In this document: one piece after another, positions 41,686-63,912 of the stretch
Position numbering within the stretch: the first letter of the stretch is position 1
Layout of the letters: each line of letters opens with the position of its first letter
NCBI GenBank assembly: GCA_012064415.1
Contig: SSNU01000252.1
Coordinates: 143,765-207,764 of the forward strand
DNA length: 64,000 nucleotides
Direction of reading: 5' to 3'
Origin: Gyrodactylus bullatarudis
Taxonomy: Eukaryota; Platyhelminthes; Monogenea; Gyrodactylidea; Gyrodactylidae
Notes under the pieces: generated by a model
What the model saw: the letters and a program-made list of their open reading frames with translations, nothing else
The model's database searches: none
What the model was told of the DNA's origin: nothing
Made by a program: the position numbers and the translations under genes

Positions 41686-58822
<17,137 letters not shown>

Positions 58823-58880: not shown

Positions 58881-59355
58881 CCTCTTTTCTCTTTGACATA
58901 CATTCTAAATTGCACTGAAGATAAGCATTTGTAAAATGATTTTACTATGCCAATATTTTAATGATGATGAAGATAACAACCGGCAATTTAAAATTATATA
59001 GTGATGAGGGAAAGATCTTGCCGAAATATTTGTATTGATTATCAATCATGATAATGTTAAATGTATTACTCATTGAAAAAAATAGCTATTCGAGTATATA
59101 GAAATTATTGTGATAAAACATGATATTTTATTCAAAATGTGAAACAGTGCCCTTTTTGATTATTGGTTTTTGATGACAATTAAACATGTTAAATTATTGT
59201 GTACGTAAATTAAAAAATGATTGTTAAAAAGATGAGGAAATTTGTCAATAAAATATTTTCTGATGACCTAATCTTCTTCTAAATTCTTGAGAACTGCAAA
59301 ATTATAATTTTCGGTCCATTTTCTTAATTATTATTAATTCTGAAATAATAATTCA

Positions 59356-60338
59356 ATCAGCCCTAGTTCAAGCAAACATTAACCCATATCTCATTAACTG
59401 GATCTGTAATTTCATCTCTAATAGAAGTCAATTTGTACACCTTGATAATCAGTCCTCTGATACTCGAATTACCTCCGGATTTCCTCAAGGCTCAATTATT
59501 GGACCTCTACTATTCAACCTGGTATTTTCTAGTATTGTTCCTACATCAACGAACCTTAAATACTTTAAATATGCAGACGACTTAAAAGTTCTCATTCCAA
59601 ATTATTCTCAACAAAAAATTCTTGATGAACTCAAGCATATCAAAGACTCACTTAGAGTTATTGGACTAACCATCAATGATTCGAAAACTATAATTATGAT
59701 TCTCTCGCCAAGCAATCCGTCGAATGAACTAGACTCTAGTCTCTCTCACCTAATAGTTATGAAAATTAAAGACCTTGGTCTTAATTACGACAACAAACTC
59801 AGATTCAAGCCTCATATCAATGAATTACTTAAAACACTCAGATACGCGACTTATCTAATAATAAGATTCATAACATGCTCGAGACTCAAACTAATTGTAT
59901 ATAAAAGCTTCATTTTATCTAAATTTGACTACTGTGCTGCTCTAATAATGGGAATAATCGAATCTACTAAAAAGATTGAAAGAATTCAATACATATTTCT
60001 CAAATCATGCTTTGGCATGGAAAGTTACAGAAAATCTCTATCCTATTTGGTTGAGAAGAATTGCTGCATCGCTGGTACTTTATAAGAATATTATGAACTC
60101 ACGCCTGAGGAGATATGAAACTAGAAACAACAGAGGCTACACAATCCTTCTCCAAAACACCCTCCAACTAAGGACCAGATTCAAAATAGATCTATCGAAT
60201 CATAAATTTGTAAATATAAAAGCAACCTGCCAATTCCTATTTACATATATTCCAGAGAATCATAACATGTTTGAAAATTATTTCTTATAAATAACTGTAA
60301 ATATCCATATTTAATAATAAAAAAACTTCTATTCAAAA
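59356..60338 (+). mobile_element. 5'-truncated Jockey/CR1-like non-LTR retrotransposon
   Basis: The frame from about 59360 encodes the C-terminal half of a reverse transcriptase: ITSGFPQGSIIGPLLFNL, then KYFKYADDLKVL (YADD catalytic box), GLTINDSKT and KDLGLNYDNKLRFKPHI. It continues into the family's thumb region (SKFDYCAA, IERIQ). A frameshift near 60040 shifts the last part to another frame (IWLRRIAASLVLYKNIM, stop 60288-60290). A short A-rich tail follows. Perfect 13-bp duplications AAATAATAATTCA flank it at 59343-59355 and 60339-60351. It stands about 150 bp upstream of the next gene's start codon. Confidence 0.9.
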
Positions 60339-60499: not shown

Positions 60500-60546
60500 A
60501 TGCTACGCGATATACTGGATAAAGGTGTTAACTTATTCGATAAAGT
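60500..60546 (+). CDS. clint1: clint1 exon 1
   Basis: Encodes MLRDILDKGVNLFDK plus two bases of Val. The donor is GTAATT at 60547. It aligns with the amphipathic N-terminal helix of epsinR. The following intron has 30 nt. Confidence 0.8.
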
Positions 60547-63039
60547 GTAATTTCTTATTTTGTCTATCATTTTCAGTACTAATGTCGTAATGAACTATAC
60601 AGAACCAGAGATTAGAGTTCGTGAAGCCACTAATTCTCAACCCTGGGGTCCTCATCCAAAATTGATGGATGAAATTGTTATAGATACCCGCCATTATATG
60701 AATTGTGTTGAGGTTATGTCTATGCTCTGGAAAAGAATGTTTAATGAAGAAGATGTTCACTGGAGAACTGTTTATAAAGTATAAAGACATAATAACTCTA
60801 TAGGGTCTTGTTCTCCTGACGTATCTCGTTAAGAATGGTCCTGATACAGTTTATAAAAATGCCAAGGAGCATATCTATGATCTCAGATCTTTAGAGTCTT
60901 TCAACTTTATAGATGAAAAGGGCAAAGACCAAGGAATTAATGGTGAATTTCAATTTCATTAATTTATATTCAATTCTAGTTAGATACAAAGTAAAAGAAG
61001 TGATTGATTTGTTGGATGATTTTGATAAACTCACAGCAGAACGACAAAAAGCTGATAAAATGAATGCAATTCGGTATCAAGGAGTTGGATCAGACTCTTC
61101 ACGTAGCTTTAACCAATACAACTCGTAAGTATTTCCCTGAATATCCAACATTCCTTTTTGACCCTTTTACGTCCCAGATAGTCTTCCTTATTTGCTAATA
61201 ATTAAAGTATTAAAGGATTTTTTTCAAATAAATACTGGGACGTTAGGGATTTTCATCTAAATTTTTTCATCTTTCTGATTATTTTGTAATAATCCAGCTC
61301 ATGTGTTCCAATGCATGGAGGTAACTCTTCATTAAGAGAACAAACCATTGCTTCTGAAATCACAGAAACCGTCAAAGATATTTGGATGACTACAAAATTT
61401 GTAGCCAAAACTGTTATGGGTGTTCCTTTACCTCATAATGTTCACATGCCGTTAGTATAGAAAATAACTTATTTTCTAGATGTGTAATTCCTTTTCTACC
61501 TTGAATACTGATAGATCAATATGAAAAATTATTTTCTAATTTTGTCTTGAACTGATATTCTATGTATGTTTGATGACACTTGAAAAACTTCTTGTACTTG
61601 AAGTACATTTATGCAGCTATTAAAATGTTGATGGAGTATTTTAGGATACTTTTTTTCTGATTTCAAGATAATTTGAACGTTTAATCTTTAGCCCTATAAA
61701 CTGAATTTCTACTTTTATTCTCCAATATCTAAGAATGATTTTTCAGGTTAAAATTAAAAAATATCCCTGTGATTTTCAGCTTTAAAATTAGTTTTAATAC
61801 CCAATACGATTAGGTTCTTATTTATTCTTGAATAGCTCAAATAGTTTTTCATATTGGTCTAGCTGTAGTTATGATTAGCTCTACTCTTAATTTGATAGAG
61901 TGTACACCAGAATTTAACCCCGTTTACATACACCTTTCCAATCTCTAGCTAATCCCACAATTAACAAGCTATTACACCCATTTATTACACTTTATTTACT
62001 TTGTACTTTATTTGTAGAAAGTCTTCATTCATTTAATTTATTCCTCATGCAATTGAATATGATTGAAAAACCCTTGTCTTGTATATTGACGTGTGTGCAT
62101 TTCTTGAATGACTCCATAACTATCATAATCTTGAAGCTGTTTTGCATCAGGGTGAAATTTGCACAAATCCCTCTGTAGTTGGTAATATAATCCAACTATT
62201 GAATAAAGTCTTATGATATTGAAATGAATCTCTTATTGATAGTGGTTAAAATATTTGTTGAGATAAAAAATAAAATCTTATTCAAGTTAATGTACAGTTT
62301 ATTTGCACTTTGATGTTTTTTCCTCTTAACAATTTTTCAAACTTCAAATCATAAGTAGACCCGTATTTACAGCTCAAATACTCGGGAACAATAAGACTGA
62401 CAAAGTAAAACCAGTTATAGTTAATCAATAACTTTAAATGAATAAACTATTTATTATCGGAAAATACTAGAACTGATCTGTACAATTTTGCACTTTATTG
62501 AGAAAGATATGAGCTAGTCACGCGAAAAAAAACCTTTTTTGCAAAACAGCTTATCTTTTATTTGAATAGAAACTGAGTGCCTCTTGTTTTTTATCCTTAT
62601 TAATATTTCTTTGTAGTTTTGAGTCCAACTCTAGGGTTGTCTCTGAGGACTATATATCACCAAAGCCAAATGGATCATATTATCGCCCAGAGGAGGAAAA
62701 CTCCTTTCAAAGTTGCCAAACCAGGAAGAAATCAACAGAGTCAACTCCTAATGGTAAAATAAACATAAAATGGAACGGTTCCCCGGGAATGAGCAAAACA
62801 CAACAACCTGGAAGGATATCCCATCCTAGGCAAACTAAACAGGAATCTCCAGTACAAGAAGCCACTGAAGTTGTTCCAGATCTCTTATACTTTGATGATG
62901 ACCAGCCTGTTGTTGGTAGTAAAAATAATAGCTCACTCAAAAATAACAATCCTCTTGTATCAACCGCCAATGATGATTTTACTGACTTTTTCAGCTCTAA
63001 TGCAACTGTCCCAGCCAATTCTAATTCCACCAATACAAG
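60500..63039 (+). CDS. clint1: Clathrin interactor 1/epsinR-type ENTH protein, 3' end beyond window
   Basis: Six exons join in frame to 369 residues: 60500-60546, 60577-60778, 60804-60942, 60980-61124, 61298-61450 and 62617-63039. The ENTH domain (about residues 4-145) starts MLRDILDKGVNLFDKVTNVV, then has YTEPEIRVREAT, QPWGPHPKLMDEI, MLWKRM, VYKGLVLLTYLVKNG, AKEHIYDLRSLESFNFIDEK and GKDQGINVRYKVKE. TNVVMNY and HIYDLRSLE favour epsinR (CLINT1) over plasma-membrane epsins. These proteins bind PI4P membranes, clathrin and AP-1 in trans-Golgi/endosome transport. The tail is disordered and carries PDLLYFDDD (316-324) and DDFTDFF (348-354), the kind of acidic Phe motif used to bind adaptor ears and clathrin. 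Human CLINT1 has about 625 residues, so the C-terminus is missing here. ATG 60500 is chosen because it gives the conserved N-terminal helix. Confidence 0.92.
60577..60778 (+). CDS. clint1: clint1 exon 2
   Basis: Acceptor CATTTTCAG, donor GTATAAAG at 60779. It encodes TNVVMNYTEPEIRVREAT through HWRTVYK of the ENTH domain. Without splicing the frame stops at once (TAA at 60782). Confidence 0.92.
60804..60942 (+). CDS. clint1: clint1 exon 3
   Basis: Acceptor CTCTATAG after a 25-nt intron; donor G|GTGAAT at 60943. It encodes GLVLLTYLVKNGPDTVYKNA and HIYDLRSLESFNFID. Overlooked by simple ORF scans because it has no long frame of its own. Confidence 0.92.
60980..61124 (+). CDS. clint1: clint1 exon 4
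   Basis: Acceptor CAATTCTAG after a 37-nt intron; donor GTAAGTAT at 61125. It encodes RYKVKEVIDLLDDFDKL and ends with GVGSDSSRSFNQYN, like the GVSSDS segment that closes the epsinR ENTH region. Confidence 0.92.
61160..61252. repeat. Short hairpin element in clint1 intron 4
   Basis: CCTTTTACGTCCCAG at the left and CTGGGACGTTAGGG at the right form a roughly 14-bp inverted pair, about 93 bp apart, filling most of this 173-nt intron. The CCyTTT/AGGG ends recall piggyBac-type mini-elements, but no TTAA flanks are present. Confidence 0.5.
61298..61450 (+). CDS. clint1: clint1 exon 5
   Basis: Acceptor TAATCCAG, donor GTTAGT at 61451. It encodes SSCVPMHGGNSSLREQTIAS and ETVKDIWMTTKFVAKTV. It is phase-compatible on both sides, but its sequence is not conserved enough to be certain of the 3' border. 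Confidence 0.7.
61451..62616. other. clint1 intron 5
   Basis: 1166 nt, AT-rich, without repeat matches to the rest of the window or any ORF of note. Confidence 0.6.
62617..63039 (+). CDS. clint1: clint1 exon 6 (disordered tail)
   Basis: Acceptor TTTGTAG, donor GTAAGC at 63040. It encodes 140 polar residues with PDLLYFDDDQP and NDDFTDFFSSN, candidate clathrin/adaptor-ear ligands. The base composition is clearly richer in G+C than the flanking introns. Confidence 0.85.
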
Positions 63040-63912
63040 GTAAGCATTATTTCTATATGTTACATACCAGACATTGTTTCTCTGTTATGTCTAGCTATGC
63101 TTTTTCGTTTCATTTCTATGACTACTTCTAATAGTCAGTTTATTATTAGCAATAATAGCTAGCTGTTAAGAATAATAAACAGTTTTTTTGCTATTCTTGT
63201 TAAACGATTTTTATTTTGTGGAAAATAATGCCGAGCTTCTTCTAAAATATTTTCTGATGACGAAGATATCTTCATGAGAAATTAAAAGTCGAGTGAATAT
63301 TTAGTGATTAAGCTTATATATCTCATTAGACTATTACACCGGCTTGATATTAAGTTTTTGAGCATATGCAAAGTCCTCTTATTGGTTCAAATAGTTTTTT
63401 ATTTTGTATTCTTCTCTAAATCCTTTTAGTCTTTTCTAAATTTTAAAATAAAATTTGTCTCAGATCAAAAGCAATCACATACTAAGCACTCAAAAAATGC
63501 AATATTCATGATAAATCTTTCGGCTGTATGAACTTGTACAATAAATAAATACTGATTTTCTATCTAGGGGCGAGTTAATAATTTATGATATTTGGTTGAT
63601 GTGCAAATTATAAATCATGATCTCTCTTTTTCATTGCATGACTCAGGCTACTTTTTACCGTATAATTCTTTCTAATGTCGCTTGATTATTAAACTCTTCC
63701 TTCGGTTTACCATCTATGGATAAGCAATACGATATATTTTATCGATCTAATCGGCAAAAATAATAGCCATGTCTATCATTCCATGTTTTTCTAAATCACT
63801 TAGATCTTATCGCTAAGCATAAGAAAATTCACGTCTCTACAGGTAGATGTAGCAATTCCCGATGAATTTGCTCGTCACTGCATCTCTTAACTTGAAAGTA
63901 AAAGTATCTAAA
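63040..63912. other. clint1 intron 6 (start)
   Basis: AT-rich; no further exon recognised before the window ends. Confidence 0.55.

Follow-up and report, generated by a model that had tools for sequence, protein, structure and literature searches.

Three probable near-minimal introns in the epsinR gene of the flatworm Gyrodactylus bullatarudis and a class of 23-41 nt introns in its conserved genes

We analysed a stretch of 64,000 nucleotides (nt) from the genome of the monogenean flatworm Gyrodactylus bullatarudis (assembly GCA_012064415.1, contig SSNU01000252.1, positions 143,765-207,764; hereafter the window, in whose numbering local positions are given). At 60500-63039, on the forward strand, it carries a homologue of CLINT1/epsinR, a clathrin adaptor with an ENTH domain, and the 5' part of this gene is interrupted by three segments of 30, 25 and 37 nt (Table 1). 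A preliminary description of the window had proposed that these segments are introns; the coordinates, lengths and GT and AG ends that it gave for them proved exact to the base. Joining the exons yields a 178-residue ENTH protein (Pfam ENTH match, 142.8 bits) that aligns with human CLINT1 (PDB 1xgw, 'Epsin 4') free of gaps between model residue 11 and about residue 155, across all three junctions; the single gap in this alignment lies in the tail, after residue ~155. If retained, the 30-nt segment would bring in an in-frame stop, and the 25- and 37-nt segments would shift the frame. The gap-free match to CLINT1 thus bears out the earlier claim that the gene reads correctly only when the segments are removed.

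The locus was aligned with eight reference proteins using a purpose-written spliced protein-to-DNA aligner. Four references (P0005, P0004, P0013 and P0031) returned exactly these three introns, and P0001 returned the same three together with one later gap. With P0026 the 25- and 37-nt introns were recovered, and gaps of 450 and 50 nt were placed before and over the first intron instead. Two schistosomatid references span part of the locus, each yielding a single intron: the 37-nt one for P0071 (with one frameshift) and the 25-nt one for P0073. When the aligner was run in a mode free of dinucleotide preference, the 37-nt intron was set at GT...AG in seven of the eight runs and the 30-nt intron was placed exactly in three (P0005, P0004 and P0013); the 25-nt gap was shifted by one base in seven runs and measured 22 nt with P0071. 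Beyond the conserved part this mode produced nonsense gaps, as expected for an unconstrained method.

Table 1. Features of the epsinR gene in the window, with the basis for each assignment
Feature	Coordinates	Strand	Basis
Exon 1 (from ATG)	60500..60546	+	ATG at 60500; the P0005, P0013 and P0031 alignments start there with their own first residue
Intron 1, 30 nt, GT-AG, phase 2, GTAATTTCTTATTTTGTCTATCATTTTCAG	60547..60576	+	Frame restoration; CLINT1 and spliced alignments
Exon 2, ENTH domain	60577..60778	+	Pfam; CLINT1 and spliced alignments
Intron 2, 25 nt, GT-AG, phase 0, GTATAAAGACATAATAACTCTATAG	60779..60803	+	Frame restoration; CLINT1 and spliced alignments
Exon 3, ENTH domain	60804..60942	+	Pfam; CLINT1 and spliced alignments
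Intron 3, 37 nt, GT-AG, phase 1, GTGAATTTCAATTTCATTAATTTATATTCAATTCTAG	60943..60979	+	Frame restoration; CLINT1 and spliced alignments
Exon 4, end of ENTH domain and start of tail	60980..61124	+	Pfam; CLINT1 and spliced alignments
Intron 4, 173 nt, GTAAGT...CAG, phase 2	61125..61297	+	Sequence reading; keeps frame; exon beyond is without homologue cover
Exon 5, 153 nt, open	61298..61450	+	Within open frame 61293-61460; without homology support
Intron 5, 1166 nt, GTTAGT...TAG, phase 2	61451..62616	+	Sequence reading; P0001 alignment backs the acceptor at 62616 only
Exon 6, tail	62617..63039	+	Within open frame 62570-63043; GTAAGC donor at 63040

The preliminary description had also proposed surveying the genome for a class of such short introns. 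We found one, at 23-41 nt, in 67 gene models comprising 30 small-GTPase loci, six CCT regions, 30 kinase loci and the epsinR locus, with proteins both external and from this genome as references. Gaps were accepted under a strict filter (a BLOSUM62 score of 20 for each flank, counted over at most 12 codons) or a relaxed one (score of 10 on both sides). At least one gap was present in 49 of the 67 models. The total of 97 gaps divides into four that were dropped as non-disruptive, 48 that fell below the strict flank score and 45 strict introns in 30 genes; 23 of the 48 enter the relaxed set, which holds 68 introns in 41 genes and includes a 1492-nt gap at the epsinR locus. The 30-nt epsinR intron passes the relaxed but not the strict filter, as the P0001 alignment has just four codons ahead of it. 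Both sets show frame-restoring GT-AG segments falling into length classes: 25 of the strict introns measure 23-41 nt, none 42-53 nt, 14 measure 54-69 nt and six are of at least 118 nt, the corresponding relaxed counts being 36, 0, 19 and 13. Thirty-nine of the 45 strict introns are shorter than 75 nt. The 22 strict introns assessed against external proteins alone show the same split, with 14 of 23-37 nt, five of 55-68 nt and three of at least 118 nt. A two-component normal fit to the strict lengths below 80 nt gave means of 31 and 61 nt, with a Bayesian information criterion of 299 versus 330 for one component. The short class has a minimum of 23 and a median of 30 nt; the 23-nt introns belong to a CCT-gamma homologue and to L061, a gene identified by eye as Ras-like. 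Since the class is present in the surveyed genes, the three introns are not peculiar to epsinR; they are typical of the conserved genes sampled.

Two GTPase gaps with GT...AG ends, of 30 nt (L060) and 39 nt (L064), are in frame and free of stops, and were rejected as introns; they account for two of the four non-disruptive gaps. They are probably a coding insertion of Rab27-type proteins, the two GTPases being, we presume, Rab27-like. The aligner mistakes in-frame segments of this type for introns, and in this size range they can mislead homology-based annotation. A separate scan for GT-AG segments between flanks with coding-like codon usage found 58, not more than the 34-125 obtained with 11 alternative dinucleotide pairs; a 25-codon coding signal is too weak in this A/T-rich genome.

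Assembly indels, or the decay of a pseudogene, might mimic introns of this size: the segments do break the reading frame, and a reverse-transcriptase remnant lies directly upstream of the gene (59291-60085). However, each break is cured by one exact GT-AG removal that leaves the remaining frame conserved, and segments of this kind are also present in Ras, Rab, Rho and CCT genes. Over the 67 gene models the GT-AG alignment reached a total score of 33,235 with no frameshift and 44 strict introns. The best of 12 decoy dinucleotide pairs scored 31,839 with 10 frameshifts and 24 strict introns, and the decoys ranged over 9-18 frameshifts and 7-24 strict introns; that they find gaps at all is because real introns are present to be approximated. 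When the length of each gap was fixed and its position left free, GT-AG was best or tied in 26 of the 39 strict introns below 80 nt and came within 4 points of the best placement in 36 (a margin computed for GT-AG alone), and each of 15 other pairs held the best place at most once. One-base slides of the segment (GG..TA and TA..GG), which are outside those 15 pairs, tied more often. We therefore regard an origin by indels or pseudogene decay as extremely improbable.

The ends and bodies of the segments bear on how they would be removed. Short introns of the relaxed set (n = 36) carry A at +3 in 29 cases, A at +4 in 28 and G at +5 in 17; they end in TAG (21), CAG (8) or AAG (7), and their bodies contain 31% A and 5% G. 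In the ~60-nt class (relaxed, n = 19) the counts for +3A, +4A and +5G are 8, 16 and 17. The short class thus has less +5G (strict, 11/25 vs 13/14, p = 0.005; relaxed, 17/36 vs 17/19, p = 0.003) and more +3A (p = 0.006 relaxed, 0.075 strict), with no difference in +4A (p = 0.73, relaxed), all of these p-values being exploratory because the positions were chosen after viewing sequence logos. The site bonus of the aligner favours +5G, equally in both classes. Six of the 25 strict short introns start with GTAAAT, and none of the 14 in the ~60-nt class. With regard to loss of the polypyrimidine tract, a trait of flatworm microintrons, pyrimidines occupy 68% of positions -12 to -4 in the short and 73% in the ~60-nt introns (relaxed, p = 0.29).

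Two adjacent U1 genes lie on contig C9 (19577-19728 and 19011-19163; L077), with the 5' ends AAACTTACCTG and AAACTTACTTG respectively; the usual U1 5' end is ATACTTACCTG. The first is complementary to CAGGTAAGTTT. A U1 with the second end would pair less stringently with the final base of the exon. The mean duplex energy with the first U1 5' end was -5.2 kcal/mol for the 25 strict short introns and -6.2 kcal/mol for the ~60-nt class (n = 14), the two classes being compared directly with each other. Pairing with the first U1 was weaker in short introns at borderline significance, with p = 0.14 against the ~60-nt class and 0.071 against all larger introns (strict), or 0.058 and 0.042 (relaxed); for the second U1 the same four comparisons gave p = 0.087, 0.044, 0.030 and 0.025. 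A U12 small nuclear RNA match of 76 bits (contig C252, 369199-369356; L078) points to retention of the minor spliceosome despite the compactness of the genome.

The segments are shorter than the usual vertebrate spliceosomal intron, which speaks for removal by an endonuclease, along a route like that of tRNA introns or XBP1. For XBP1 and some tRNAs it is documented that short introns are excised without the spliceosome (PMC5435141). Such a route is, however, at odds with the GT...AG ends, most of them TAG or CAG, with the A/T-rich bodies and with the U1-like 5' sites, and we give it hardly any credence. Frame-restoring GT...AG ends and a 5' site complementary to U1 are instead the marks of U2-type introns.

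The difference in +5G between the classes (11/25 vs 13/14) has a bearing on two further readings. Regular retention or alternative splicing of the three introns might serve to switch the adaptor protein; the low +5G fits this, as does the fact that keeping any one of the three breaks the frame. However, the class is found in housekeeping genes (CCT, Rab) as well, which makes a general switch unlikely, and from the sequences we judge regular retention of the epsinR introns improbable. A tentative possibility, which we would put at well below even, is that there are two quantal short classes, separated by the empty interval of 42-53 nt, the shorter of which follows a different 5' splice-site rule. 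Under such a rule the short class would be GTAAAT-like, mostly with +3A and with little need for +5G, and the ~60-nt class would follow GTnAGT; the short introns might, for example, depend less on U1, with a larger part played by U6 or by recognition of the two ends at the same time.

Along the genes, the short introns sit closer to the N-terminus than the remaining introns, with p = 0.032 (strict) and 0.008 (relaxed) for GTPases and p = 0.008 (strict) and 0.002 (relaxed) for CCT genes. Kinase introns are off this gene axis because the loci hold parts of those genes only. Adjacent introns share a class more often than expected (strict, 11 of 15 pairs vs 7.3, p = 0.049; relaxed, 19 of 27 vs 13.7, p = 0.027). 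For the order within single genes, short introns precede larger ones in 10 pairs and follow them in two in the relaxed set (p = 0.037), or in seven and two when epsinR is left out (p = 0.11). The pattern of short 5' and long 3' introns that the preliminary description had carried over from schistosomes thus holds across genes and is weak within single genes (strict, p = 0.50). There is moderate support for a tendency of the short class to lie in the 5' part of genes.

The mitochondrial genome bears on which animals the introns should be compared with. A mitochondrial contig of 14,926 bp carries COX1, with 12 TGA codons inside the family match; under the flatworm code COX1 is a 531-residue frame with 15 TGA. 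Its AAA codons at residues 99 and 213 correspond to Asn in the aligned chain 5z62_A, and AGA at residue 102 to Ser, and the flanking genes were read by eye as nad1 and nad3. On this reading of the codons, TGA as Trp, AAA as Asn and AGR as Ser together indicate the flatworm mitochondrial code, which echinoderms also use; a genome of 77 Mb and the neighbours nad1 and nad3 do not point to an echinoderm. The comparison with flatworms, an extrapolation in the preliminary description, is therefore grounded. The assembly comprises 77.3 Mb in 471 contigs, and the window has a GC content of 29%; published Gyrodactylus assemblies measure 67-91 Mb with 31-39% GC (PMC12677651), so that the size lies within their range and the GC of the window slightly below it.

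Introns of the fluke Opisthorchis felineus show peaks at 37 and 90 bp; about 34% are below 75 bp, and these lie at the 5' end and in clusters, which the authors suggest may reflect intron definition (Ershov et al. 2019, PMC6530080). A microintron fraction was present in the other flatworms analysed there too. The introns described here have the same traits, being mostly below 75 nt with two short peaks, a 5' bias across genes and adjacent clusters, alongside long introns in the same genome, but the means are ~31 and 61 nt and the minimum 23. In Taenia the peaks are at ~36 and ~73 bp, and the monogenean Gyrodactylus salaris has the same two-peak pattern (PMC5036155); again two short peaks are shared and the means here are smaller. 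The short introns of the fluke study are described as having splice sites closer to consensus (PMC6530080), whereas here they have less +5G than the ~60-nt class, although the sets compared differ between the two studies. Dicyema introns measure 26.2 +/- 1.9 nt (n = 16; PMC2222250), with a genome mean of 38.2 nt in Dicyema japonicum (PMC6736024). The likeness to dicyemids that had been proposed for this gene extends to size and fails for uniformity, since dicyemid introns are described as uniformly short and 20 of our 45 strict introns are of at least 54 nt. Introns of Paramecium (20-35 nt, mean 24.8; quoted in PMC2222250) are similar in length only and belong to a unicellular lineage. Microintrons are thus already known from flukes, tapeworms and G. 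salaris, and the epsinR gene adds a case. What is possibly new is the small size (minimum 23 and median 30, compared with published peaks at 36-37) together with the lower +5G; the difference in +5G between classes was not met in the accessible literature covered, which leaves most subscription work outside.

Several observations weigh against our interpretation. The survey rests on 45 of 97 gaps, the remainder being the 48 that failed the strict filter and the four that are non-disruptive; 23 of the 45 depend on paralogues from the same genome, and the sample leans to conserved domains. Both chance controls have some GT-AG lean, the fixed-length test starting from gaps preselected as GT-AG and the decoy runs using references picked under GT-AG. 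Counting matches to CAGGTAAGTTT does not separate short from larger introns (p = 0.46 in the strict and 0.17 in the relaxed set). The signal for a branch motif is weak, with TAAY at 6-9 nt from the end in 7 of 23 introns against 3.0 in shuffled sequences (p = 0.017), this being one of 12 combinations of pattern and window and uncorrected. Within genes the strict set gives short-then-larger order in three pairs against two (p = 0.50). Finally, PMC5036155 places the short class of tapeworms towards the 3' end, in conflict with PMC6530080 and with the 5' trend in our sample, and gives flukes the first short peak only, again in conflict with PMC6530080.

Taken together, the frame-restoring GT-AG segments and the 23-41 nt class support the initial reading of the three segments as real introns near the minimal size. 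We consider it very likely, judging from the sequence, that they are near-minimal U2-type introns handled by the ordinary spliceosome and that they belong to a 23-41 nt class present in many conserved genes, with most of its members towards the 5' end. Their splicing, branch point and mode of recognition are what we infer from the features above. Recognition would proceed by intron definition: U1 would bind the GTAA/GTGA-type 5' site, the branch A and the 3' AG would follow a few bases on in the same short segment, and both ends of the 25-nt intron would be bound in one step. The short class would be separate from the class of ~54-69 nt and from long introns.

Downstream of the ENTH domain, the two introns that the preliminary description had placed next have the lengths it gave, and both keep the frame in phase 2 (Table 1). 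The P0001 alignment passes over exon 5 in the single 1492-nt gap, which we read as two introns and an exon; with phase 2 on both sides, this exon is possibly a cassette exon. A Pfam search of 62570-63040, the region of the tail exon, gave no match. The gene probably extends past exon 6 and out of the window. Intron 4 contains a perfect 9-bp inverted repeat (ACGTCCCAG at 61169-61177 and CTGGGACGT at 61235-61243), which may be due to chance. The reverse-transcriptase remnant lies on the same strand as epsinR (Pfam RVT_1, 50.9 bits for 59291-60082), and its overlapping open frames 59291-60085 and 59958-60290 suggest a frameshift. Further upstream, also on the same strand, open frames at 50948-51331 and 58195-58590 have RRM matches about 6.9 kb apart; the preliminary description took them for an ELAV-like gene, which would place long introns beside the gene with tiny ones.

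Introns of 23-30 nt come near the physical limit of what a spliceosome can grip, and their use in housekeeping genes makes this animal a natural test of that lower limit. In genomes of this kind, gene predictors run with their customary lower bound on intron length would disrupt Ras, Rab, CCT and further genes; that annotation software with a high minimum misses microintrons is a warning also given by the authors of PMC6530080. The gyrodactylid assemblies have BUSCO scores of 55.6-63.4% (PMC12677651), and we suggest that missed tiny introns may add to this modest completeness.

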